DNA of 64,000 bases from Niabella sp. (GTDB lineage: Bacteria; Bacteroidota; Bacteroidia; Chitinophagales; Chitinophagaceae). Numbering within the stretch: position 1 is the stretch's first letter; each line of letters opens with the position of its first letter. The DNA is taken from contig JAPUDO010000046.1 in assembly GCA_027493055.1 (NCBI GenBank), forward strand, positions 186,001 to 250,000, given 5' to 3'. Shown one piece after another: positions 2 to 15,317 of this stretch. A program made the translations under genes and the position numbers. The notes below the pieces were generated by a model. The model was not told the origin of the DNA. It did no database searches and was given only the letters and a program-made list of their open reading frames with translations.

Positions 2-250
2 GCCGCTTCTCTTATTTTTTCATTCTTCATCAGCACGGATACTATTGCCCTGGTAAAAAGCCCTTTAAAAAACCTCCAGGCATTATGGTTTGCCCTGGCA
101 TTTACCAGTATAGGCCTGGAGACTAACTTTAAAGACCTGGTAGGTGTGCATAACAGGAAACCTGTGATTGCATTTTTAGGGGCACAGCTTTTTAATGTGA
201 TCATAACGCTCATTATAGCCTGGTTTCTTTTCGGTGGCAACAAACTTTAA
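2..250 (+). CDS. YeiH/UPF0324 family putative anion (sulfate) exporter, C-terminal fragment
   Basis: Only the last 82 codons are in the window; the gene starts upstream of base 1. The visible protein is hydrophobic, with two to three membrane segments, and contains the stretch FTSIGLETNFKDL, which I recognise as characteristic of the C-terminal part of the YeiH/UPF0324 membrane family (annotated as putative sulfate exporters; real substrates are poorly known). It ends with a TAA at 248-250. The downstream neighbour on the same strand is a SusC/SusD/sulfatase locus, so a link to sulfur oxyanions is plausible but rests only on the family name and position. A palindromic, probably terminating, sequence follows at 312-341. 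Confidence 0.72.
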   Translation, partial: AASLIFSFFISTDTIALVKSPLKNLQALWFALAFTSIGLETNFKDLVGVHNRKPVIAFLGAQLFNVIITLIIAWFLFGGNKL

Positions 251-311
251 GCTCATAAAAGATGCTGTCTTATAAAAGCATCCATTATGCTCAAAGTGTT
301 TTTTAAATAAG

Positions 312-341
312 TATAAAAAAACTTTTAAAAGTTTTTTTATA
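312..341 (+). terminator. 30-bp perfect AT-rich palindrome after the exporter gene
   Basis: A perfect palindrome of 30 bp centred between 326 and 327: an A7 run, CTTTTAAAAG and a T7 run. As RNA it forms a hairpin ending in U residues on either strand, so it could end the exporter transcript and insulate the downstream SusC promoter. It is only AT-rich pairing apart from one C-G pair per side, so termination is inferred. A weaker 6-bp hairpin (GATGCT/AGCATC) lies at 261-282. Confidence 0.45.
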
Positions 342-355
342 TCAAACAGGTTCAG

Positions 356-363
356 TATTTTTG
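356..363 (+). promoter_or_regulatory. Candidate -7 box of the sulfatase-locus promoter
   Basis: TATTTTTG fits the Bacteroidota -7 consensus TAnnTTTG. No clear TTTG -33 element is seen at the right spacing. Transcription from here would begin near 370 and give a leader of about 410 nt before the SusC start at 783, containing a 39-codon ORF and a hairpin with a U tract. Confidence 0.45.
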
Positions 364-426
364 TCTACTAAATAAGTAGACTAATAGCTGTTAACCACCA
401 GCAGTTATATTTTAAACCCAATTAAA

Positions 427-546
427 ATGAATAGCTCAACAAACGCTGTGTTTAAGTTGCAAAACTTCACTTCTGTAAGCCAGGTGGTAATACCTTCTCA
501 AATGTTCTGTATGAACAGAACCACTACTACCTGTTGTTGCATATAA
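427..546 (+). CDS. 39-residue upstream ORF ending in Cys-Cys-Cys-Ile (candidate leader peptide)
   Basis: An ATG at 427 opens a 39-codon frame that stops at 544-546. The product begins MNSSTNAVF and ends MNRTTTTCCCI; the three consecutive Cys codons (TGT TGT TGC, 532-540) lie one codon before the end, and another Cys sits at residue 28. The ATG follows an A-rich stretch typical of Bacteroidota translation starts. The frame lies between a candidate promoter (356-363) and a terminator-like hairpin (608-671), upstream of a SusC/SusD/two-sulfatase locus. Known leader peptides that sense an amino acid carry runs of its codons, and Cys-run upstream ORFs controlling sulfur genes are known in other phyla. 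Function as a cysteine sensor here is inference. It has no recognised domain and could be a chance ORF. Confidence 0.5.
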   Translation: MNSSTNAVFKLQNFTSVSQVVIPSQMFCMNRTTTTCCCI

Positions 547-607
547 GTACCCATTTTTCATGTTATCTGAATAAGCGATAAGCCTGTTATTGCTGCAACC
601 GGCAAAA

Positions 608-671
608 GGTATCCCATGGCCTGTCCACAATAATCGGTGGTTGGTTATAGTTGGGGGCCGGGGTGCCTTTT
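608..671 (+). terminator. Terminator-like hairpin in the SusC leader (candidate attenuator)
   Basis: The left arm 608-615 (GGTATCCC) pairs with 660-667 (GGGGTGCC) through six Watson-Crick and two G-U pairs. After a 2-nt bulge (616-617), 618-621 (GGCC) pairs with 656-659. The 34-nt loop holds an inner CCAC/GTGG hairpin (625-628 with 637-640). Four U residues (668-671) follow. The structure lies 61 nt after the stop of the Cys-tailed upstream ORF and about 110 nt before the SusC ATG, so it would block read-through into SusC if it terminates. The short U tract keeps confidence moderate. Confidence 0.42.
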
Positions 672-782
672 ACTGATTACACTTACAGAGATTTCCATAA
701 TACACAAACCATCAAAAAACGAGTACAAAGTACCTGCGGCATTATTATGCCCGGAACGTACCGGATACAAACTACAAATAAA

Positions 783-3700
783 ATGCGCAAGAAGAGTCTT
801 TTATATAGCATCACACTATACCTGCTGCTCCTTTTAACCGGCAGTGCGATCCATGCACAAAACCCCGCTACTATTAATTCTGTACTTGAAGGTACCGTGC
901 TTGATGAAGTAACCAATGAGCCGCTTGATGGAGCTAACGTCATTATTGAAGGGGTAACCAATCAAACTACAACCAATTCCAAAGGACAGTTCATATTACG
1001 CACGGGACAGAAGTTCCCCTACAACATCATCATCACTTTTGTGGGGTACGAAAAGAAGATCGTGCTGGCAACAGGGTCGCCCGTTTCCGTAAGATTAAAA
1101 CCTATCAATAACAACCTGGATGATGTGGTAGTAGTAGGTTATGGAACCCAAAGAAAAACTGATGTTACCGGAGCCGTAAGCTCATTATCACAGAGCGCTA
1201 TCAGGCAGCCGCTGAGCTCATTTGATCAGGCGTTAAAAGGTGCCTCCACGGGCGTTCAGGTAACACAAACATCAGGACAACCTGGCGGAGGTGTCAGCAT
1301 CCGCATCAGGGGCGGATCCTCCATCCAGGGAGGTAATGAGCCGCTGTATGTTATAGATGGCTTCCCGGTATACAATAGCAGTAACTCGCCCGGTATAGCT
1401 TCCGGGGCCGTGGTAAATCCATTGGCAGGTATTAACCCGGCTGACATTGACAGGATAGATATTTTAAAAGACGCCGCGGCCACTGCTATTTATGGATCGC
1501 GTGGCGCAAATGGCGTAGTAATTATAACAACCAAAAAAGGAAGCCCCAGGAAAAGCGCCATCAGCTACGATGGGTCGTATGGTCAGCAAAGCGTGCAGAA
1601 AAAAATTGACGTGCTGAATGCAAAACAATTTGCGGTTCTAAGAAATGAAGTGCTGTACGATACCAAACCATCAGGCGGAAAATATCAATATTTAAGTGAA
1701 GCTGAGATAGCCGCATTAGGCGAAGGAACCAACTGGCAACAGGAGGCTTTCAGGAATGCTCTTGTACAAAGCCACCAGGTTTCTATTGCAGGGGGCAGCA
1801 GTAATACACAATACTTTATATCGGGAAGCTATAATAAACAGGAGGGAATTATTAAAAACACCGACTTTACAAGAATAGCTGTCAGGGCCAATATCAATGC
1901 CCGGCCTGTTAACAGGCTCACAGTAAGCACCAATATTACCGCAAGTAAAGCAGACGCAAATATTGCTCCATCAGGCATCATCGGCTCTTTATTAATCATG
2001 CCTCCTACAGCCACCATATATGAGCCGGACGGAAGCTATACATTAAGAAATCCTTTTGAGAATATATTTGCCAATCCAATAGCCACATTAAACGAAACGC
2101 TTAATAAATCCGCTACCATAAGATTTTTAGGCACCGGCTATGCAGAATATGAGATCATCAAAGGATTAAAAGCCAAAGTATTATTAGGTACGGACATTAG
2201 TAATGACAAGGAAAAGTATTATGTGCCTTCCATCATTTATGAAGGAGCAGGCACTAACGGACAGGCATCTTTAGGTAATTCCACGACATACTCCTGGTTA
2301 AATGAGAACACGTTTTCCTGGTCAAAGGAGTTTGGTAAAAGCGCGCTGACGGCTTTGGCAGGCTTCACACAGCAGGAGTCGGCCAACGAAAGATTCACCG
2401 CCGGAGCACAACAATTTGTTACAGACGACCTTACCTATAACAATCTTGAAAGCGGTTCTGTGCTGCTTCGGCCTACGTCAGGCACTTACGACTGGGTATT
2501 GCATTCCTACCTGTCAAGGATAACTTATAACTATAACAGCCTGTACTATTTAACAGCAAGTATCAGGCGTGATGGCTCTTCCCGCTTTGGTAAAAATAAC
2601 AAGTGGGGCAATTTCCCGTCAGTATCCGCTGCCTGGAATATCAGCAAGGAAAACTTCTTTACTCCCCTTCGTGATAAAGTAAGCGACCTTAAATTAAGAG
2701 CAAGTTTTGGTACTACCGGTAACCTTGAAATAGGACAATATCAATCCCTGGCTACCCTGTATAGCTTAAACTATTTATTCGGAGGAAATATTATCAGTGG
2801 CTTTGCACCACAAAGAATAGCAAATGATAACCTTGGATGGGAAAAAACGTATCAATACAATGCAGGATTAGACCTGGGTTTACTACGCAACAGGCTTGCT
2901 ATTAGCATAGAAGCTTACTATAAAAAAACAACCGACCTGTTATTAAACGTAGAAATACCATGGACTACGGGTTATGCCACTTCATTACAGAACTTTGGAT
3001 CGGTAGCAAACAAGGGTATTGAACTGGGATTAAAGAGCAAAAACCTGGCCGGGCTCTTTGCCTGGAACAGCGACCTGAACATTTCCTTTAACAGGAACAA
3101 AGTGCTGGCTATTGGCAACAACGCGCAATCTTATATTTCAGGCAATTATATCATCCAGGTGGGAAAACCTTTAGGTACTTTTTATGGTACTGCAACGGAT
3201 GGTATTTTACAACAGGGAAAGGAAGCGGAAAAAGGGAAATATACCGGTAATGCCACACCCAAAGCCGGCGACCGTTTATATAAAGACATTAATGGTGATG
3301 GCAGTTTTACAACAGCGGCCGACCGTGCTATTATCGGCAATGCGCAACCCGACTTTATATTTGGCTTCACAAACAACTTCTCCTGGAAAGGATTTGACCT
3401 GTCTGTATTTCTGCAGGGCGTTTATGGCAACCAGATCATTAACAGCAACCGCCAGTCTTTAGAAATGTTTACAGGCCAGCAAAATGCATCTGTAACAGCG
3501 TTAGAAAGATGGACGCCTGAAAATCCCTCAACAACAATACCACGGGCTAAATTAGATCCGGCGCCGGTTTTTTCAGACCGCTTTGTTGAAGACGGCTCTT
3601 TTATACGGGTAAAAGATATCACGCTTAGTTACGCGCTGCCTGTATCCCTTTTAGACAGGGCCAAAATTTCTGCCGTCAGCATTTATGTAACTGCCCAAAA

Positions 3701-3833
3701 TCTCCACACTTTCACAAAATACACCGGGTTTGATCCCGAAATCACTTCGGGCAGCAATGTATCTCCCGGAACAGACTCAGGCATCTACCCTTTGGCTAAA
3801 AGCATAATAGCCGGACTCAGGGTAACCTTTTAA
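783..3833 (+). CDS. SusC/RagA-type TonB-dependent outer-membrane transporter (sulfatase locus)
   Basis: This 1016-residue protein imports oligomeric substrate across the outer membrane with its SusD partner, powered by TonB. I chose the ATG at 783 because it opens a clean signal peptide (MRKKSLLYS... to a cleavage after HAQ, residue 26); the frame stays open upstream, with an ATG at 747 and a TTG at 651. Order of parts: carboxypeptidase-regulatory-like beta-sandwich (about 30-110), a TonB-box-like segment with VVVVGYGTQRK (about 116-125), plug domain (GYGTQ...IYGSRGANGVVIITTKKG), then a 22-strand barrel ending in the usual aromatic C-terminus GLRVTF. There is no N-terminal STN domain, so it is unlikely to signal to a FecR anti-sigma factor, unlike the second SusC in the window. 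SusD follows after 71 bp, then two sulfatases, so the substrate is probably sulfated. Confidence 0.93.
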   Translation: MRKKSLLYSITLYLLLLLTGSAIHAQNPATINSVLEGTVLDEVTNEPLDGANVIIEGVTNQTTTNSKGQFILRTGQKFPYNIIITFVGYEKKIVLATGSPVSVRLKPINNNLDDVVVVGYGTQRKTDVTGAVSSLSQSAIRQPLSSFDQALKGASTGVQVTQTSGQPGGGVSIRIRGGSSIQGGNEPLYVIDGFPVYNSSNSPGIASGAVVNPLAGINPADIDRIDILKDAAATAIYGSRGANGVVIITTKKGSPRKSAISYDGSYGQQSVQKKIDVLNAKQFAVLRNEVLYDTKPSGGKYQYLSEAEIAALGEGTNWQQEAFRNALVQSHQVSIAGGSSNTQYFISGSYNKQEGIIKNTDFTRIAVRANINARPVNRLTVSTNITASKADANIAPSGIIGSLLIMPPTATIYEPDGSYTLRNPFENIFANPIATLNETLNKSATIRFLGTGYAEYEIIKGLKAKVLLGTDISNDKEKYYVPSIIYEGAGTNGQASLGNSTTYSWLNENTFSWSKEFGKSALTALAGFTQQESANERFTAGAQQFVTDDLTYNNLESGSVLLRPTSGTYDWVLHSYLSRITYNYNSLYYLTASIRRDGSSRFGKNNKWGNFPSVSAAWNISKENFFTPLRDKVSDLKLRASFGTTGNLEIGQYQSLATLYSLNYLFGGNIISGFAPQRIANDNLGWEKTYQYNAGLDLGLLRNRLAISIEAYYKKTTDLLLNVEIPWTTGYATSLQNFGSVANKGIELGLKSKNLAGLFAWNSDLNISFNRNKVLAIGNNAQSYISGNYIIQVGKPLGTFYGTATDGILQQGKEAEKGKYTGNATPKAGDRLYKDINGDGSFTTAADRAIIGNAQPDFIFGFTNNFSWKGFDLSVFLQGVYGNQIINSNRQSLEMFTGQQNASVTALERWTPENPSTTIPRAKLDPAPVFSDRFVEDGSFIRVKDITLSYALPVSLLDRAKISAVSIYVTAQNLHTFTKYTGFDPEITSGSNVSPGTDSGIYPLAKSIIAGLRVTF

Positions 3834-3904: not shown

Positions 3905-5380
3905 ATGAAACGCATATACCTTTTTACATTAATAATAATGGTGCTTCAGGCAGGTTGCTCAAAGCTTGATGAAGTTCCTGAATCCTTCCTGGTAACCGAA
4001 CAGTTTTACCGGAATGAAAGTGAAGCGGTGGCCGCTGTTACGGCTATTTACCGGAAGCTTTACGAAAGCGGCCAATCTTTATACAACAGCTTATTCCAGA
4101 TTGGTGTAGAAATGGCTACAGACGATTATGAAGCGGGCCCCAGGGCAAGAAACGCGCATGTACGTGCTATATCAGGTCTAACGCATGATGCATCCAACGA
4201 CAGGATGCAGGAGCTTTGGAGGCAAAGCTACAGCGCTATAAGCGCTGCTAACGTAGCTATTGATAAAATAGCTGAAATTGACGCAGCCAATATAAACGAA
4301 ACAGTACGGGCACGCCTCATCAATGAAGCTAAATTTTTACGCGCACTGAACTACTTCAACCTGGTAAGATGGTTTGGCGGCGTACCCATTGTACTTCACG
4401 AGACATCTTCCCTATCGGCAGAGGCCCTGTATGTTGAAAAAGCAACAGAAGAAGATGTGTACCAGCAGATCATCAAAGACCTTAACAGCGCCGGGCAGCT
4501 ACCCAATTGGAAATCTTATGGCGCAGCTGATATCGGGCGGGCCACATCGGGAGCCGCCAAAAGCCTGTTGGCAAAGGTTTACCTTACTAAAAAAGATTGG
4601 GCGAATGCAGTGCTTAAAAGTAAAGAGGTTATAGACAATGAAGGGTATGACCTGTTTCCCCAATTTTCCGATGTATTTGCCGTAGCAAAAAAGAATGGGA
4701 TCGAGCATATTTTTTCAGCACAGTTCCAGGGAAATTCCGGATATCAGGGAAACAGCCTGGCAAGCCGGTCCGCGCCTGCCGATATACCCGGTATTAACGG
4801 GGATTATGCTGATGCTTTGCACTGGGAGGGCAACCTCTACCAGAGTTTTGCTGCTAACGATGCCCGCCTGCCGGTAACCTTTGTAACACAAATGGTAAGC
4901 CCGGCTGACGGTAAATTATACGTTTTATCCAAACCACAGTTTCATAAATATTACGATGAAAAAGTGGTGGGCAGCCCGGGGCAGTCTTCCAAAAATCTTC
5001 CTATCATCAGATATGCGGAAGTATTGCTGATTTATGCAGAAGCTTTGAACGAACAAAACGGAGGGCCGAACAGCGAGGCTTACCAGGCCATAGACAAAAT
5101 ACGCAACCGCGCTAAAATTACCCGTTTGCAGGATGTTGCTCCGGCGCTTAGCCAGTCTCAATTCCGTGACTCAGTTTTCCAGGAACGCAGAAAAGAGCTG
5201 GTGTTTGAGTACCAGCGCTGGTTCGACCTGGTAAGACGTGGGGCCGATTACTATGTGGCTACACTTAAAGCTGCCGGCAAAACACAGGCTGCGCCCAGGC
5301 ATATCCATTTTCCAACACCGCAGCGCGAGCTTGACCTAAACCCTAAGCTAAAGCAACACCCCGATTGGATAAACTATTAA
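3905..5380 (+). CDS. SusD/RagB-type surface glycan-binding lipoprotein
   Basis: A 491-residue lipoprotein: the signal MKRIYLFTLIIMVLQAGC places the lipidated Cys at residue 18. The body shows the SusD pattern: TPR-like helices (FLRALNYFNLVRWFGGVPIV, about 143-162) and the C-terminal RagB region with RYAEVLLIYAEALNE and ERRKELVFEYQRWFDLVRRG. It caps the SusC barrel just upstream and binds the incoming substrate at the cell surface. The next gene, a sulfatase, starts 29 bp after its stop, so SusC, SusD and the sulfatases are probably one operon. The ligand cannot be read from sequence. Confidence 0.93.
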   Translation: MKRIYLFTLIIMVLQAGCSKLDEVPESFLVTEQFYRNESEAVAAVTAIYRKLYESGQSLYNSLFQIGVEMATDDYEAGPRARNAHVRAISGLTHDASNDRMQELWRQSYSAISAANVAIDKIAEIDAANINETVRARLINEAKFLRALNYFNLVRWFGGVPIVLHETSSLSAEALYVEKATEEDVYQQIIKDLNSAGQLPNWKSYGAADIGRATSGAAKSLLAKVYLTKKDWANAVLKSKEVIDNEGYDLFPQFSDVFAVAKKNGIEHIFSAQFQGNSGYQGNSLASRSAPADIPGINGDYADALHWEGNLYQSFAANDARLPVTFVTQMVSPADGKLYVLSKPQFHKYYDEKVVGSPGQSSKNLPIIRYAEVLLIYAEALNEQNGGPNSEAYQAIDKIRNRAKITRLQDVAPALSQSQFRDSVFQERRKELVFEYQRWFDLVRRGADYYVATLKAAGKTQAAPRHIHFPTPQRELDLNPKLKQHPDWINY

Positions 5381-5409: not shown

Positions 5410-7017
5410 ATGAAAAACCGGATAAACTTTTTAAAGAAGATCGCTGTTCTTCTGCTTGGCATAGGAATAGCCAATGCTGCCTTTGCACAACAAAAACCTA
5501 ATATCGTTCTCATCCTTGTAGATGATCTCGGGTTTTCTGATATTGAGCCTTATGGTGGTATTGATATAAAAACGCCCCATATCAGTAAGCTGGCCAGTGA
5601 AGGCACTATTTTTAAGGAATTTTATAATAATTCCATCTGCGCACCCACCAGGGCCTCCCTGCTTACAGGGCAGTATCCCCATAAAGCAGGTGTGGGCTAT
5701 TTCAACGTAAACCTTGGATTACCTGCATACCAGGGCTTTTTAAACAAAGAGTCGCTTACCCTGGCAGAGGTTCTAAAAAGCGGCGGCTACAGCACCATCA
5801 TATCCGGTAAATGGCATGTAGGCGATGATAAAGACCAATGGCCCGCCCAACGCGGCTTTGAGAAGTCTTTTGGTTTTATTGGAGGCGCCAGCAATTATTA
5901 CGAGATCAATGACTCAGCTAATGCCGATGTAAAGCTTATAAAAAATAACCAACCCTACTATCTTGAAAAAGATAAATACCTCACCGATGCTATAACAGAT
6001 AATGCACTGGGTTTCCTGGACGAGCAATCGAAAGAAAAAAAACCTTTCTTCCTGTACCTGGCTTTTAACGCTCCTCACTGGCCTTTACAGGCCTTGCCCC
6101 AGGATATAGAGCAGTACAAAGGCATTTACAGTTCAGGATGGGACAGCCTCCGTGTACAACGGTACAGACAGGCTGTTTTAAAAGGTGTATATGATAAAGA
6201 CCAGGCTATTGCCAGGCACGATGAAGCCGTTCAGCCATGGAATAAGCTTACCTATGACGAACAGCAATACTGGCAATACCGGCAGCAGGTATATGCAGCC
6301 ATGATTGATCATGTAGACCAAAGTATCGGACGTTTGCTTAACAAATTAAAAGAACTGAAGAAAGATGAGAATACATTGATCATTTTCCTTTCGGATAATG
6401 GTGCCCAGGGCGGGAACGGCCTCAGGCTTTACACGCAAAGAAATACAGGACCCGTTGGTTCTGCCGGTTCATACGAAGTGCAAAACAGCAACTGGTCTCA
6501 AACCGGCAACTCCCCGCTCAGAAATTATAAAGGCACGCCTTATGAAGGTGGCATAAGCGCGCCTTTTATAGCATGGTTACCCAAATTTGTGCCTGCTGCT
6601 ACAATAGTAAAAGGCTCCGGCCACTTAATTGATATAGCCCCTACCCTGTATGAACTTGCAGGTATTAAATACCCTGCCATTTATAACGGAATACATACAA
6701 ACAGGTTACCGGGTAAAAGTTTATTACCGGTGCTTTACGGGAAGTCCGATACCATAAACAGGCAGGGCGGCATCTTTTGGGAACGCGGCGGCAATATCGC
6801 TGTAAGGCATGGAAAATGGAAATTAGTGCAGCCAGCCACTACACCCGGGAAGTATGAGCTGTATGATATAACAAAAGACAGGGCAGAGAATACCGATCTT
6901 GCCAAAGAAAATCCGGAGATAGTAGCGCATCTGCAAAAATTATATAAAGAATGGGCAGCAGAAAACGATGTGGTCGATTATTCACTCCTCCGTCCCCAAA
7001 GCCCGGCGGGTAGATGA
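5410..7017 (+). CDS. Formylglycine-dependent sulfatase (first of a tandem pair)
   Basis: A 535-residue family S1 arylsulfatase-like enzyme that hydrolyses sulfate esters. The start at 5410 gives a signal peptide ending AAFAQ (about residue 27), so it acts in the periplasm or outside the cell; the frame is open a further 15 codons upstream. Metal-binding LVDDLGFSD is near 37-44. The catalytic motif CAPTR starts at Cys77, the C-x-P-x-R signature whose Cys is oxidised to formylglycine; SGKWHVGD and LSDNGAQGGNG give further active-site residues. No maturation enzyme is in the window, so it must be encoded elsewhere. The protein resembles the next gene throughout (both have NNSICAPTRASLLTGQY), so the two are duplicates. 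Substrate is unknown. Confidence 0.94.
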   Translation: MKNRINFLKKIAVLLLGIGIANAAFAQQKPNIVLILVDDLGFSDIEPYGGIDIKTPHISKLASEGTIFKEFYNNSICAPTRASLLTGQYPHKAGVGYFNVNLGLPAYQGFLNKESLTLAEVLKSGGYSTIISGKWHVGDDKDQWPAQRGFEKSFGFIGGASNYYEINDSANADVKLIKNNQPYYLEKDKYLTDAITDNALGFLDEQSKEKKPFFLYLAFNAPHWPLQALPQDIEQYKGIYSSGWDSLRVQRYRQAVLKGVYDKDQAIARHDEAVQPWNKLTYDEQQYWQYRQQVYAAMIDHVDQSIGRLLNKLKELKKDENTLIIFLSDNGAQGGNGLRLYTQRNTGPVGSAGSYEVQNSNWSQTGNSPLRNYKGTPYEGGISAPFIAWLPKFVPAATIVKGSGHLIDIAPTLYELAGIKYPAIYNGIHTNRLPGKSLLPVLYGKSDTINRQGGIFWERGGNIAVRHGKWKLVQPATTPGKYELYDITKDRAENTDLAKENPEIVAHLQKLYKEWAAENDVVDYSLLRPQSPAGR

Positions 7018-7054: not shown

Positions 7055-8692
7055 ATGAAAAAATATCTAACTATACTCACTCTTGCAATATCGGTGAGCA
7101 GCCTGTATGCACAGCAAAAACCTAAAAAGCCTAACATCATACTTATTGTGGCTGATGACATGGGATACTCTGATCTTGGCACTTACGGTTCAGAGATCAG
7201 CACTCCTAACCTCGATAAGTTGGCTTATGAAGGCATACGCTTGCAGGAGTTTTATAATAACTCAATATGCGCGCCTACACGGGCCTCTTTATTAACCGGG
7301 CAGTACCAGCACAAGGCTGGGGTAGGTTATTTTTCCAACGATCTGGGTTTGCCTGCTTACCAGGGATATATTAATAACCAATCGCTGACACTTGCAGAGG
7401 TGCTTAAAGAAAACGGGTACACTACCATCATATCAGGGAAATGGCACGTATCCGGAAAAGGCCAAAGCTTACCCTGGCAACGGGGATTTCAATTTGTATA
7501 TCCAAAAAATGAACAGTCGGCCAACTCCGGCGCACCAGGCGTGCCCGACATAAAAACAGATAATGAAGGGTTTCCGCTGGAAGCTTCTTTTCAAACCAAC
7601 CTCATCACCAATAATGCTCTTAGCTTCCTGGATACGGCTGCACAGCAGGACAAACCGTTCTTCCTGTACCTGGGCTACACTGCCCCGCACTGGCCGTTGG
7701 TAGCATTACAGAAAGATATTGCAAAATACAAAGGGAAATATGATAAGGGCTGGGATGCGCTTCGTGAGGAAAGGTTCAAAAAACAAAAAGAGTTGGGATT
7801 AATACCTACAGATTTCCCTATCTCTAAAAAAGATGAAGATATATATGACTGGGCAAAGCTTTCGTATGATCAAAAGCAGTTATGGGCCAGGAAGATGGAA
7901 GTATTTGCGGCTATGGTAGATGAGCTCGACCAGGGAGTAGGCCATATCACCCAAAAATTAGAAGCGCTGAAAAAAGCTGATAATACTATCATATTATTCA
8001 TTTCCGACAATGGAGCTCCGGCCGAAGATCTGGTACGCTGGTACCATGGCGCTACAAAGAACACAGGCACCGTTGGCACCACCGGTTCTTTTGAATCACA
8101 AAGCAAAAACTGGTCCTATGCTTCCAACACACCTTTCAGGGGCTTTAAAGATTATTTATATGAGGGAGGGATCAATTCGCCATTTATTGCATGGTATCCC
8201 GGCAAAATAACAGCAGGACGCATCGCCAAAGGCACAGGCCATATTATTGACCTGGCGCCTACTATTTATGAAATAGCGGGAGCAAAATATCCTAAAACCT
8301 ATGCCGGCATTAGGCCATTTGATTTGCCTGGCCAAAGCCTTTTACCGGTGTTCACCGGCACGCAAAACGAAGTACAAAGAAAAGAGCCCCTGTTCTGGGA
8401 AAGGGCCGGGAACAGGGCCATAAGGTCAGAACAATGGAAGCTGGTTTCGCACTGGCCCGGCTACAACTGGGAGCTGTATGATTTATCAAAAGACAAAGGC
8501 GAAACCAATAATATTGCCCGCGATAATCATGAAATAGTAAGCCGGCTTTCGGTAAAATATTTCCGGTGGGCTAAAGCGAATGGAGTTGTTGACTTCGCTA
8601 CGCTGGAAGACAGGGAACCGCAAAGCATGAAAGAATTCAGGAAGAGCAGGGTACAGGAGGTAATACCTGCAGGAAGAGGATTCCCATTTTAA
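7055..8692 (+). CDS. Formylglycine-dependent sulfatase (second of a tandem pair)
   Basis: A 545-residue S1-type sulfatase with a signal peptide ending SLYAQ (about 20). Metal-binding VADDMGYSD is near 32-40, and the formylglycine motif CAPTR starts at Cys72; SGKWHVSG and ISDNGAP follow as expected. It begins 37 bp after the first sulfatase and shares its layout and several identical blocks, so it is a paralogue, but it differs in the middle (residues about 145-170) and at the C-terminus, which suggests a different sulfate position or sugar. It is the last gene of the SusC-SusD-sulfatase unit; the next gene (ssb) converges on it. Confidence 0.94.
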   Translation: MKKYLTILTLAISVSSLYAQQKPKKPNIILIVADDMGYSDLGTYGSEISTPNLDKLAYEGIRLQEFYNNSICAPTRASLLTGQYQHKAGVGYFSNDLGLPAYQGYINNQSLTLAEVLKENGYTTIISGKWHVSGKGQSLPWQRGFQFVYPKNEQSANSGAPGVPDIKTDNEGFPLEASFQTNLITNNALSFLDTAAQQDKPFFLYLGYTAPHWPLVALQKDIAKYKGKYDKGWDALREERFKKQKELGLIPTDFPISKKDEDIYDWAKLSYDQKQLWARKMEVFAAMVDELDQGVGHITQKLEALKKADNTIILFISDNGAPAEDLVRWYHGATKNTGTVGTTGSFESQSKNWSYASNTPFRGFKDYLYEGGINSPFIAWYPGKITAGRIAKGTGHIIDLAPTIYEIAGAKYPKTYAGIRPFDLPGQSLLPVFTGTQNEVQRKEPLFWERAGNRAIRSEQWKLVSHWPGYNWELYDLSKDKGETNNIARDNHEIVSRLSVKYFRWAKANGVVDFATLEDREPQSMKEFRKSRVQEVIPAGRGFPF

Positions 8693-12502: not shown

Positions 12503-15187
12503 CTACCTCCCGCTATTCACTACATAGCCTTTCAGCTCTTCGTTAAACGCTTTCTCTTTCAGCAACTGTTCCAGGGTAAGGTGCATGCGGTATCGCCAGT
12601 AGTGCTGTGGATTGGCAGGAACATTGATACGCTCGTCCTCCGGGTTTTCCCTACGTAAGGCTGCACTCATACCTAAAATATCCTGTAACTGGAAAATGCT
12701 CCACATAGCAGGCGAATATAAATGCTGCAGCACAATAGCCCTGTTGATCCATGGCTCACAGAAATAGGGTGCTTCCCCGCTCTGGCCTAATTCTGTGTTA
12801 TAAAATTGCTGCGTAATATTACGGTCTTCCTGCCACCAGCCACGTATGGTGCTCATATCATGTGTAGAGGGCGTTACCACCGACAGGTAAGGCGCCCGGG
12901 CCGGGTTAAAAAATGCAGCGCCCTGCTGCTTGGGCATTCTCTGAATTTCGAGGCTTAAAATACCCAGCTGCTTCATTACGCCGGGCACACTATCGGGTAC
13001 CATGCCCAGGTCTTCCCCGCATACCAGCATATCCGTTACGGCTTTCAGTCCCGGCAATTTTTTGAGCGATTCATTTTTCCAGAATTCATTCTGCCTGCGA
13101 TAGAAATAATCGATATACAAATTCCACAGCTTCTCCCTTATCTGTGGCTGTAAATGGTGGAAAGAGCTGGTTTGATCCAGCGATATCCTGAAGTGAAAAG
13201 CGGTTTGGGAAGATCCTTCCTCTTCAAACAAAATCACATTGCTGATCAGATCATATAACCCGTTACGCAACTTCATACTTTCAGCATCCTGTTGCTCTTT
13301 AAAATAAGCTGCTACTTTCTTCTGCGTGTTAAACTGGGAAAGCAATATATACTGATGTGGGCCGCGTTTCTGCAAAAACTGGTTCTTCACCTCCTCCGCT
13401 CTTTCGCGGAACAGTTCCCACAAAATTTCATCGGTAATGTAGGGCATACAAAACCGCTCATAATCAAACCATATTCCCTGCTCGCCCAATTCGCTGATAT
13501 GTACCGGGATACAGGGGTCAAACCTTCCCATAATACCCTGCACTGCATGAAGCGGGATGCTCCATATTCTGAAGAATCCCAATATATGATCAATGCGGAA
13601 GGCGTCAAAATAGCAATTCATCTGTTTAAAGCGTTCACGCCACCATGCAAAGCCATCTTCCTGCATTTGCTGCCAGTTATAGGTAGGAAAGCCCCAGTTC
13701 TGTCCTTTAACGGCAAAATCATCCGGCGGTGCCCCGGCCTGCCATTGCATATGATACAGCTCCGGCGCCACCCAGGCATCGCACCCGTAACGATACACGC
13801 CAATAGGAATATCACCCTTCATAACAATCCCCTTTTTATGAGCATAGCCCACCGCATCGCTTAATTGCAGGTGCAACTGATACTGAACATAACAATAGAA
13901 CTGCACGTGCTTAAAAGCAATATTCCCTTCTTCAAAAAACGCATTTACCTTATACGCTTCATAAACAGCATTAGCACCCCAGTCTGCAGGATTGGGAGAA
14001 CCAAACCTGTCACGCAGGTAGCAGAACGCAGCATAGGGTTTCAACCAACGCCTGTTTTCTTTAAAAAAATCTTTATACCCCTGAGTTTCCAGGCAATCAT
14101 TTCCGTTCTCATCAAACAGCTCCTGTAAAGCAGCCATTTTAAATTTCATCACCGCCTCATAGTCTATATGAGCCAGTTCATTCAGCTGTTTACGCTTGCT
14201 TTTTAAAGCGATTTCCCAGTTCTTACTCTTTTTACCGTCAATAGCTTCCAGGTTTACATATACCGGATGCAATGCAAAAGCTGATATAGCGGCGTAAGGA
14301 TAAGAATCTGCCCAGGTATGTGTAGCCGTGGTATCGTTAACAGGCAATATCTGTATTAATTTCAAACCTGTTTTAACCGCCCAGTCTGCCAGCAATTTAA
14401 GGTCATTGAACTCTCCTATTCCCAATCCATTCTTAGTTCTTAAGCTAAATACAGGAATAGCGATGCCGCAGCCACGCCATGTATCATCCGGCAGGTTTAC
14501 AAATCCATCCTGTAAAACAACCCTACCGTTTGCCAGTACCGGTTCAAAACACACCCGGTTCCCCCCGTTCTCAAATCTTACAAATTCATTTTTTGTTTTA
14601 CTATAGATGCCATATTTATAAGCAATGGGGAACCTGGCACCTGAAAGATCAAGTTCCGTAAACCATTGCTCCCCATCATAATTTAAAAGAACAGGCGCAT
14701 TAATATCCCAGCTGCTCAAATTTTCTTCCTCCCCCAAAATACAAATCACCTCATCTCTGCCAATCAGGGGTGCCTTTACTTTAAAAAGATGGGTAACTCC
14801 CTTTGTAGGCTTCGCTTTAACAACTTTATGTTTGGGCAACAATACATTGTGGAAAGGTGAAGTATAAAAAACATTTGTAATAGCTCCTGCATAATTCCAT
14901 GTATCATAGATCTTCAGGATATCCGCATCATCTTCTATAATTAATTGGCGGGGTTGCTGAAACTCATCAATTACTACTCCCTCGGCCGTTTTAAGCGTAT
15001 ATTTATATTTCAGTATTCTTTGAGAAATGGCAGGATTGCCAATATCTATTTCAAATTTCCAGTATTCATCATTAAAATACTGCATTTCCATGTATTGTGC
15101 TCCCAACCCGGGCTCCGAAAAATCAGCAGTTATAGCCAGGGTTTCTCCAAACTTAGTGTGATATCTTAAATAAAAAACAAATTTCAT
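12503..15187 (-). CDS. malQ: 4-alpha-glucanotransferase with N-terminal CBM20 starch-binding modules (DPE2-like)
   Basis: An 894-residue amylomaltase-type enzyme (GH77) that moves alpha-1,4-glucan segments between acceptors in maltodextrin or glycogen metabolism. I set the start at 15187 (MKFVFYLRYHTKFGE), where similarity to CBM20 begins; the frame stays open upstream to 15394 without plausible sequence. Two CBM20-type modules (about 1-125 and 130-245, the latter with VKAPLIGRDEVICILGEEENLSSWD) precede the catalytic barrel, which has DAFRIDHILGFFRIW (nucleophile Asp region), GEDLGMVPDSVP (acid/base Glu region) and STHDMST. The layout matches plant DPE2 and its Bacteroidota relatives. The gene is single, with an operator-like palindrome at 15210-15228 just upstream. 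Confidence 0.92.
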   Translation of the reverse strand: MKFVFYLRYHTKFGETLAITADFSEPGLGAQYMEMQYFNDEYWKFEIDIGNPAISQRILKYKYTLKTAEGVVIDEFQQPRQLIIEDDADILKIYDTWNYAGAITNVFYTSPFHNVLLPKHKVVKAKPTKGVTHLFKVKAPLIGRDEVICILGEEENLSSWDINAPVLLNYDGEQWFTELDLSGARFPIAYKYGIYSKTKNEFVRFENGGNRVCFEPVLANGRVVLQDGFVNLPDDTWRGCGIAIPVFSLRTKNGLGIGEFNDLKLLADWAVKTGLKLIQILPVNDTTATHTWADSYPYAAISAFALHPVYVNLEAIDGKKSKNWEIALKSKRKQLNELAHIDYEAVMKFKMAALQELFDENGNDCLETQGYKDFFKENRRWLKPYAAFCYLRDRFGSPNPADWGANAVYEAYKVNAFFEEGNIAFKHVQFYCYVQYQLHLQLSDAVGYAHKKGIVMKGDIPIGVYRYGCDAWVAPELYHMQWQAGAPPDDFAVKGQNWGFPTYNWQQMQEDGFAWWRERFKQMNCYFDAFRIDHILGFFRIWSIPLHAVQGIMGRFDPCIPVHISELGEQGIWFDYERFCMPYITDEILWELFRERAEEVKNQFLQKRGPHQYILLSQFNTQKKVAAYFKEQQDAESMKLRNGLYDLISNVILFEEEGSSQTAFHFRISLDQTSSFHHLQPQIREKLWNLYIDYFYRRQNEFWKNESLKKLPGLKAVTDMLVCGEDLGMVPDSVPGVMKQLGILSLEIQRMPKQQGAAFFNPARAPYLSVVTPSTHDMSTIRGWWQEDRNITQQFYNTELGQSGEAPYFCEPWINRAIVLQHLYSPAMWSIFQLQDILGMSAALRRENPEDERINVPANPQHYWRYRMHLTLEQLLKEKAFNEELKGYVVNSGR

Positions 15188-15209
15188 CGCTTCAACCGTT
15201 ATTTCATTA

Positions 15210-15228
15210 TTGTGTACAATATACACAA
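15210..15228 (-). promoter_or_regulatory. Operator-like inverted repeat upstream of the glucanotransferase
   Basis: TTGTGTA (15210-15216) and TACACAA (15222-15228) are perfect inverted 7-bp arms around CAATA, 23-41 bp upstream of the ATG at 15187. The size and place suit a dimeric repressor or activator site over the promoter; no regulator gene lies nearby. Confidence 0.35.
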
Positions 15229-15317
15229 AACGAAAATAATCAATATACTTTATTTTAAAAATAAATATTTGGCAGGCCTCACCAGTAATGTGGTGCATAA
15301 AACTTTTTCGCAGTATC

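Follow-up and report, generated by a model that had tools for sequence, protein, structure and literature searches.

A short ORF with a cysteine tail precedes a SusC-SusD-sulfatase locus

Does the short open reading frame (ORF) in front of a sulfatase-linked SusC gene of Niabella sp. sense the supply of cysteine, and by what means could it govern the genes behind it? The window analyzed here is the whole stretch of 64,000 nucleotides at bases 186001-250000 of contig 46, from a genome of 5.75 Mb in 131 contigs. Positions refer to its first base, and all window features below lie on the plus strand.

The leader region lies behind the 3' end of a Cons_hypoth698 gene (1-250; ORF L001:13991-15250, which stops at window position 250; PF03601, E 1.9e-49). 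We take this directly adjoining gene to be of the YeiH type, a putative sulfate exporter. Next come a TAnnTTTG promoter box of the -7 type, TATTTTTG, found by sequence check at 356-363, and the palindrome GTCTACTAAATAAGTAGAC at 363-381, a candidate operator of a sulfur regulator recognized by pattern search and in relatives. A 5' hairpin was predicted by folding at 384-408, and its loop, AACCACC (393-399), is kept in some relatives. The leader ORF at 427-546 has 39 codons and translates to MNSSTNAVFKLQNFTSVSQVVIPSQMFCMNRTTTTCCCI*. Its Cys codons (TGT TGT TGC, 532-540) are followed by Ile (541-543) and TAA (544-546), and thus a single codon separates the CCC run from the stop. The distance from the -7 box to the ATG at 427 predicts a 5' UTR of roughly 55 nt. 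An untranslated spacer of 236 nt lies between the leader stop and SusC; it folds into a stable outer hairpin (601-675, arms 601-615 and 660-675) and an inner hairpin (630-648), whose loop GGTGGTT (636-642) is complementary to the 5' loop.

The SusC/RagA TonB-dependent receptor gene (SusC, 783-3833; TIGR04056, E 8e-270) starts at ATG 783; read from an upstream TTG, the ORF spans 651-3833. It is followed by a SusD lipoprotein gene (3905-5380; PF07980, E 4.7e-35) and two sulfatase genes, at about 5410-7017 (PF00884, E 2e-60) and at 7055-8692 (PF00884, E 4.3e-58). The translation of the former holds CAPTR, a Cys-type motif. As befits the supply genes of an amino-acid leader attenuator, sulfatases lie downstream and sulfur-related genes upstream, with family matches to TauE, Cons_hypoth698 and a Cys/Met PLP enzyme just before the leader and SusC. 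The locus is uncommon, given that a SusD match of E 1e-120 or better occurred in 6 of 294 genomes of the family, including its own. The -7 box at 356, the 39-codon ORF with three Cys codons before Ile-stop and the SusC-SusD-sulfatase-sulfatase order behind it had all been described in an earlier note on this DNA, and each was found as described, the gene order by the family matches.

The cysteine tail is kept on diverged peptides

SusC relatives were fetched from named genomes (61 loci). The close set comprised the 21 loci whose SusC is at least 60% identical in the best segment (L003-L021, L028 and L061). The earlier note had proposed searching the leaders of sulfatase-linked SusC genes in related genomes for short ORFs ending in CCC. 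Each of the 21 close loci, from Filimonas, Chitinophaga, Niabella and Sphingobacterium, has an ATG-started ORF upstream with Cys among the final three codons. The leaders end in CCC in Filimonas, CCCRR or CCCTR in three Chitinophaga and CCCC in Niabella; in Sphingobacterium (16 of 16) they mostly end in (R)M(R/Q)MC plus one residue, or in CMC or MCM. The bodies of the peptides are unlike between genera and the Cys tail is common to them. Tandem SusC copies each have a separate leader (three in S. olei, two in S. rhinopitheci). In the Sphingobacterium alignment, pairwise gaps were multiples of 3 in 122 of 175 cases within the ORF vs. 60 of 482 downstream, counted over pairs that are not independent. 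The distant relative L144 (SusD 48%) had no Cys-tailed leader, and in L143 the Cys run sits further inside its ORF.

For a wider set, the 93-residue N-terminal domain of the window SusC was searched in 294 genomes and matched 45 places in 34 of them. With the window and one truncated locus excluded, 43 upstream regions of up to 520 nt were scored. In 22 of the 43 relatives, from 13 genera (counted by hand), an ATG ORF had three or more Cys among its final six codons, where dinucleotide shuffles gave 0.12 and the reverse strand 1; the scoring criteria were fixed after the first examples had been seen, and the margin is large. CCC within the last ten codons occurred in 18 of 43 (shuffles 0.05, reverse strand 1), and Cys within the last three codons in 33 of 43 (shuffles 11.2, reverse strand 16). 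The three-in-six test gave 22 loci for Cys and at most 2 for every other residue. Since only Cys was enriched, the tail is not a TTG repeat. The codons used in the tails were TGT (68) and TGC (19). The run was lacking in 21 of the 43 wider relatives, some of which keep the palindrome alone, and 10 of 43 had no Cys in the last three codons. Some relatives without a run finish in a single Cys, as in ..YQHGSVYRC.

Tails sit on unlike bodies, as in ..SSFRCCC, ..SFCCCCCC, ..AACCCCCC, ..CYCCDCTCC and ..RMRMCR. A codon run for one amino acid is conserved, and the rest of the peptide is not (22/43 vs. 0.12 in the wider set; Cys among the last three codons in 21/21 of the close set). That the Cys ending is kept while the rest of the peptide changes suggests that the translation of Cys codons senses a shortage of sulfur. 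The Cys-tailed leader ORF before SusC is real and exceeds chance; it is a conserved, cysteine-specific leader peptide of a kind already known. We consider it very probable that the ORF at 427-546 encodes a leader peptide which senses cysteine.

A class-wide search of 395 genomes gave matches in 18 genomes at 21 places. Cys tails were present at all three places of family f41 (..MRCCCCCCA, ..CCASTCICC and ..FRMCMCMC) and at four of the five of family f55, on very short ORFs (MKKMHNHCCK, MKTMQTCCFK, MKKRMCCR and MKKMYSNC). At 11 places in other families there was no Cys run, though a lone Cys stood among the final four codons at two of them. The window and L279 of its own family make up the rest.

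The three-in-six run was found at 0 of 56 other SusC loci of the window genome (up to 450 nt upstream), which are those scored from 164 candidates and hence not all its SusC genes. A general tie of the leader to sulfatases was rejected, as the run was found at 0 of 5 other SusC loci of the genome that the scan marked as sulfatase-linked; one of the five had an ORF with two Cys in its last five codons. The pattern TGYTGYTGYN{0,12}TAA by itself was useless, with 327 matches in the genome. The sequence TGYTGYTGYTRA had 106 matches in two genomes. In a look at 30 of these loci, an ATG in frame and no more than 70 codons away was present at 8, of which 7 overlap long ORFs and one reads MACCC; two of the other 76 matches were noted to lie at known leaders. 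An ORF of the window genome ending AKCCCL (L106) was discarded as lying inside an upstream coding gene.

A promoter palindrome is shared with sulfur genes

The palindrome GTCTAC-N7-GTAGAC overlaps the window promoter and recurs at sulfur genes. It is the only site in the 64 kb, where 0.18 would be expected with one mismatch allowed. Counting matches at 10 or more of the 12 positions, we found it at 23 of 29 related loci (the window among them; single-base shuffles gave about 0.4 of 30), at 10 of 15 further related loci and at 0 of the 56 other SusC loci of the same genome. A like -7 box abuts the palindrome in L175, L179, L180, L182 and L203.

We compared counts of strict GTCTAY-N7-RTAGAC sites with those of a reversed control. 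The window genome was barely above the control (3 vs. 2) and G119, of the same genus, clearly so (8 vs. 1); G185 (1 vs. 3) and G294 (1 vs. 2) were not above it. The number of sites by itself thus proves little outside G119. The 15.3 kb upstream of the window hold four palindromes matching at least 11 of 12 positions vs. 0 in 725,631 other fetched bases of the genome, a count that omits a TonB-receptor site scoring 10.

All three strict sites of the window genome have a Cys-run ORF beside them. One is a GTG-started ORF ending ..VIVMCCCC (L001:10560-10643), which precedes a PhyH oxygenase gene and adjoins the Cys/Met PLP enzyme and TauE genes. Another Cys-run ORF, MHTKNHYCSCCCNTYCSCGSA (..HYCSCCCNTYCSCGSA), precedes a TonB receptor in a sulfur cluster that includes a siroheme/TauE fusion; here the palindrome lies between ORF and receptor, and the longest ATG frame starts further upstream. 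In G119, palindrome and Cys-run ORF are again found together: in front of PhyH, in front of a SusC, in front of a TonB receptor that follows sulfite-reductase-like, serine-acetyltransferase-like and siroheme genes, and next to what we read as a gene like that of a formylglycine-generating enzyme. Four of the eight G119 sites (L195, L201, L203 and L205) lack such a pair of Cys ORF and gene. L203 has a remnant of a window-type promoter and a leader ending GSCC, behind which no same-strand gene follows within the fetched 3 kb. Further Cys-run ORFs sit in clusters with sulfite-reductase-like, siroheme and sulfite-oxidase-like genes.

The sulfate-assimilation cluster of the window genome encodes two PAPS-reductase-domain proteins, a CysN-like protein and a siroheme methylase. 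It is headed by an Rrf2-family regulator gene on the reverse strand (L291, C6:103900-123800, positions 7650-8054), with a 10/12 palindrome between this gene and the next. The Rrf2 protein is possibly the reader of the palindrome operator. The matching sulfate stretch of G119 (L292) had no palindrome at 10/12 or better, and in neither stretch did a Cys-run ORF appear in front of the genes for sulfate assimilation.

With the Cys tail kept on diverged peptides, the shared palindrome and the sulfur neighborhood, the earlier claim of a cysteine leader on a sulfur-scavenging operon is supported.

Other receptor loci carry cysteine tails

Most loci of a second SusC-SusD type (L036, L048, L054, L060, L062, L210, L213, L190 and L192) have Cys-run or Cys-tailed leaders. 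In those that were read, the genes behind them encode unknown membrane proteins, a sulfite-oxidase-like or rhodanese protein, an oxidoreductase or a YeiH-type exporter. In L213, a sulfite-oxidase-like enzyme and a YeiH-type exporter come after the receptor with the Cys leader. The substrate of this second type is perhaps a sulfonate.

Single cases were seen elsewhere. On the reverse strand of L225 (about 12593-15254), the Cys-run ORF MISNLNTYRSFICCCCCSCKTVC precedes a TonB receptor, and methionine-type ABC transporter genes (NIL, NlpA) lie a few kb beyond it. In L218 (flipped, 14155-14274), the Cys-run ORF ..SSSMRMSMRCCCMHCA before a receptor is also rich in Met codons. Cys-run ORFs ..QPAILCCCCCS and ..FFRRCCCGA precede receptors in L222 (16083-16304).

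The spacer RNA of the window holds no scored terminator

The earlier note had seen a stable hairpin with a U4 tract and proposed that stalling on the Cys codons prevents it from forming as a terminator. The hairpin exists at 601-675; its terminator role was not borne out. The TTTT at 668-671 lies inside the stem, paired with AAAA of the 5' arm, and a scan for intrinsic terminators in 240-900 found 0 (0.5 expected). Across 57 leaders, a set picked for Cys tails and holding close relatives, 9 had a terminator-like site between ORF and SusC vs. 3.1 expected from simple shuffles, and 48 had none. The last Cys of these leaders lies 1-4 codons from the stop, their length is 18-55 codons, and the gap between ORF and SusC has a median of 151 nt (68-400, a few start sites being approximate).

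The note had suggested looking for an antiterminator; an alternative structure that involves the Cys codons was not supported either. The complementarity of the Cys-codon region to the downstream leader was no higher than in shuffles (Fisher p 0.35; 26 of 33 leaders, the 7 near-duplicates being excluded), although the single leaders L005 and L036 were below 0.05. RNAalifold paired CGAAUGCGAAUGUG with UGGCGUUGGCACUUG in 15 Sphingobacterium leaders. The reading in which the Cys codons pair with an element before SusC was dropped because 0 of 11 pairs had changed on both sides and because of the duplex p of 0.35. Neither a terminator nor a sequestering structure with an alternative fold at the regulatory codons was found in these tests. 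Rfam gave one match in window 200-1000, at E 0.22 and below its curated score, and 0 matches at 20 related loci.

The base composition behind the stop was skewed. C/(C+G) in the first 15 nt after the leader stop was 0.70 vs. 0.48 in other SusC upstream regions, and over the 50 nt that follow the ORF, 48 of 57 leaders had more C than G. The excess is modest; the window itself has 10 C vs. 9 G in these 50 nt.

Paired loops and an element near SusC recur in some leaders

Six leaders (the window, L028, L178, L181, L185 and L186) have a 5' loop AACCACC and a 3' loop GGUGGUU, which are perfectly complementary and are carried on stems that differ among the six. The 5' loop with changed stems also occurs in L158, which has no 3' loop. 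All five loci with GGTGGTT among 45 searched (the window, L178, L181, L185 and L186) also carry AACCACC, and the pair is absent from the other 40. Shuffles gave an equally good loop match in 0 to 7 of 40 per leader, with L185 the highest.

Near SusC, leaders of Sphingobacterium and Filimonas have CAATTGGCGTTGG or a similar sequence. A search of 11 genomes for this motif together with its 3' flank gave 11 sites in 5 of them (control 0): nine before a SusC or TonB receptor, one before a sulfatase gene and one with no near gene. At 9 of the 11, an ATG ORF lies upstream and has Cys among its final four codons. In L010, L011 and L005, a second copy lies between promoter box and leader ORF, right behind the box. 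A gene of L187 encodes a protein with a sulfatase-like start; directly before it, with no SusC between, stand a leader with a Cys tail (..RKMRMCIIG) and CGATTGGCGTTGG (at 1630). L155, L154 and L152 share with L151 the same element and a like N-terminal domain, and the rest of the receptor differs, as if leader and N-terminal domain had been exchanged as a cassette.

Relation to known systems

Short ORFs with Cys runs precede cys genes in mycobacteria and other Actinobacteria, according to the parts available of Seliverstov 2005 (PMC1262725), where the mycobacterial leaders are described with Cys runs near the stop and no conserved terminator, and Rho is suggested. Experiments on mycobacterial poly-Cys leaders are those of Canestrari 2020, as quoted in excerpts of PMC9031893 and PMC13236596. 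As far as these texts describe them, the actinobacterial ORFs share with ours the Cys run near the stop, the sulfur genes downstream and the lack of a conserved terminator hairpin. They differ in that the mycobacterial leaders are leaderless, whereas a 5' UTR is predicted for the window leader; the present system also lies in another phylum, before outer-membrane receptors and sulfatases, its loci have a promoter palindrome in common, and some of its leaders have hairpin loops that pair. In the available portion of PMC8632094, the uORFC-8-2 motif before cysS of Rhodobacterales is a conserved AUG ORF with tandem Cys codons, as here, for which ribosome-mediated attenuation is proposed; an intrinsic terminator closes that motif and the Cys-tRNA synthetase gene lies behind it, neither of which applies to the window leader. 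Cys-run leaders in other phyla, which the earlier note had mentioned, are thus on record for actinobacterial cys operons and Rhodobacterales cysS.

The window leader is also like tnaC in its regulatory codons at the ORF end, its long untranslated spacer and the surplus of C over G after the stop. Expression behind tnaC is subject to Rho-dependent attenuation, with the regulatory codons at the end of the leader ORF. By analogy, the window leader would sense Cys codons where tnaC senses tryptophan. PMC1262725 itself draws a parallel to the tna operon. For the operator, there is a likeness to CymR-type regulons, with an Rrf2 gene beside sulfate-assimilation genes and a 10/12 palindrome next to it. 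CymR is a sulfur regulator of the Rrf2 family. The candidate operator is absent at 10/12 or better from L292 of the same genus.

For the phylum, parts of a flavobacterial transcriptome study (PMC9723704) treat leader-peptide attenuation before amino-acid operons in general, and parts of a Bacteroides transcriptome study (PMC7366714) report that long 5' UTRs contain short ORFs. The literature searched, chiefly open-access texts without supplements, gave no Cys leader on Bacteroidota SusC/TonB genes, in line with the earlier note, which knew of none for SusC/SusD loci. As far as this literature shows, the phylum, the genes behind the leader and the surrounding architecture are new.

Proposed mechanism and alternatives

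Starting from the conserved Cys tail, its specificity for cysteine, the shared palindrome and the sulfur context, we infer a course of events in which four points are conjectural: that the ribosome stalls, which way the response goes, which regulator acts, and the part of Rho. Transcription would start just after the -7 box, with the palindrome probably the point of control by a sulfur regulator, possibly the Rrf2-type protein encoded beside the sulfate-assimilation genes. With ample Cys-tRNA, the ribosome would finish at the leader stop and leave behind it the long untranslated stretch, where Rho-dependent termination or the structured spacer would most likely cut expression off. With scarce Cys-tRNA, the ribosome would stall on the Cys codons beside the stop, cover the RNA immediately behind that stop and let transcription reach SusC, SusD and the sulfatases. 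Rho-dependent attenuation and control by RNA structure are both possible for this leader. The C excess after the stop, the scarcity of terminators and the likeness to mycobacteria lead us to favor a stall that would shield the RNA from Rho, and this step is drawn from composition and the lack of terminators. Overall, we consider it likely that the locus belongs to a sulfur-scavenging regulon with palindrome control and a cysteine-sensing leader whose stalled ribosome relieves a cut-off, most likely a Rho-dependent one. The earlier reading thus stands as to a Cys leader peptide before a sulfur-scavenging SusC/D-sulfatase operon and falls as to its trp-like terminator switch.

That switch is the classical form of attenuation, in which 601-675 would be an intrinsic terminator replaced by a competing structure upon stalling at Cys. 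The stable hairpin with its TTTT, the excess of terminator-like sites (9/57 vs. 3.1) and L186, which by our reading of its sequence and fold shows a long stem followed by TTTTT, are in its favor. We judge it unlikely, given a U4 tract within the stem, 0 terminators in the window, none in 48 of 57 leaders and a complementarity p of 0.35. Control at the level of translation or RNA tertiary structure has a somewhat better chance and is still doubtful. According to this explanation, AACCACC and GGUGGUU form a kissing contact, which a ribosome translating the leader between them makes or breaks, and SusC expression is set in this way. The co-occurrence of both loops on different stems at 5 of 5 GGTGGTT loci, and in L028, speaks for it; the pair is missing from 40 of 45 loci, L158 has only the 5' loop, the Sphingobacterium element is different, and shuffles match as well in up to 7 of 40 for the six leaders.

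Poly-Cys tails could bind metals or thiols, and the peptide itself might act in this way or as an arrest peptide, irrespective of cysteine supply. This is very improbable, as bodies and lengths vary freely (18-55 codons in the 57 leaders, 8-10 in f55) and some tails have one Cys. Finally, the ORF could be a chance by-product at a locus regulated by the palindrome alone, which would suit the several relatives that keep the palindrome without a Cys run; against 22 of 43 loci with 0.12 expected, and a Cys-specific signal, hardly any weight is left to it. The reading we prefer remains that of a stalled ribosome protecting the transcript.

A broader idea, which we regard as speculative and rather improbable, is that of a Bacteroidota cassette made up of an Rrf2-type operator, a 5' hairpin, a poly-Cys leader and a kissing 3' hairpin, which moved together with the SusC N-terminal domain. 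If this were true, a transcription factor, a leader peptide and a tertiary RNA switch would work together in one cassette that needs no intrinsic terminator, and ribosome traffic on Cys codons would set which sulfur compounds are imported through varied TonB receptors.

Implications

If the preferred reading of a cysteine-sensing leader is true, Bacteroidota switch some SusC/D loci by the supply of cysteine, where the usual explanation is the sensing of sugars. Sulfatase loci would then be of two sorts, serving carbon or sulfur, and the leader would tell one from the other; the Cys leader would also serve as an annotation marker for sulfur-scavenging receptors. With a terminator-less poly-Cys leader in a second phylum, the way in which such leaders act would become testable in culturable genera.
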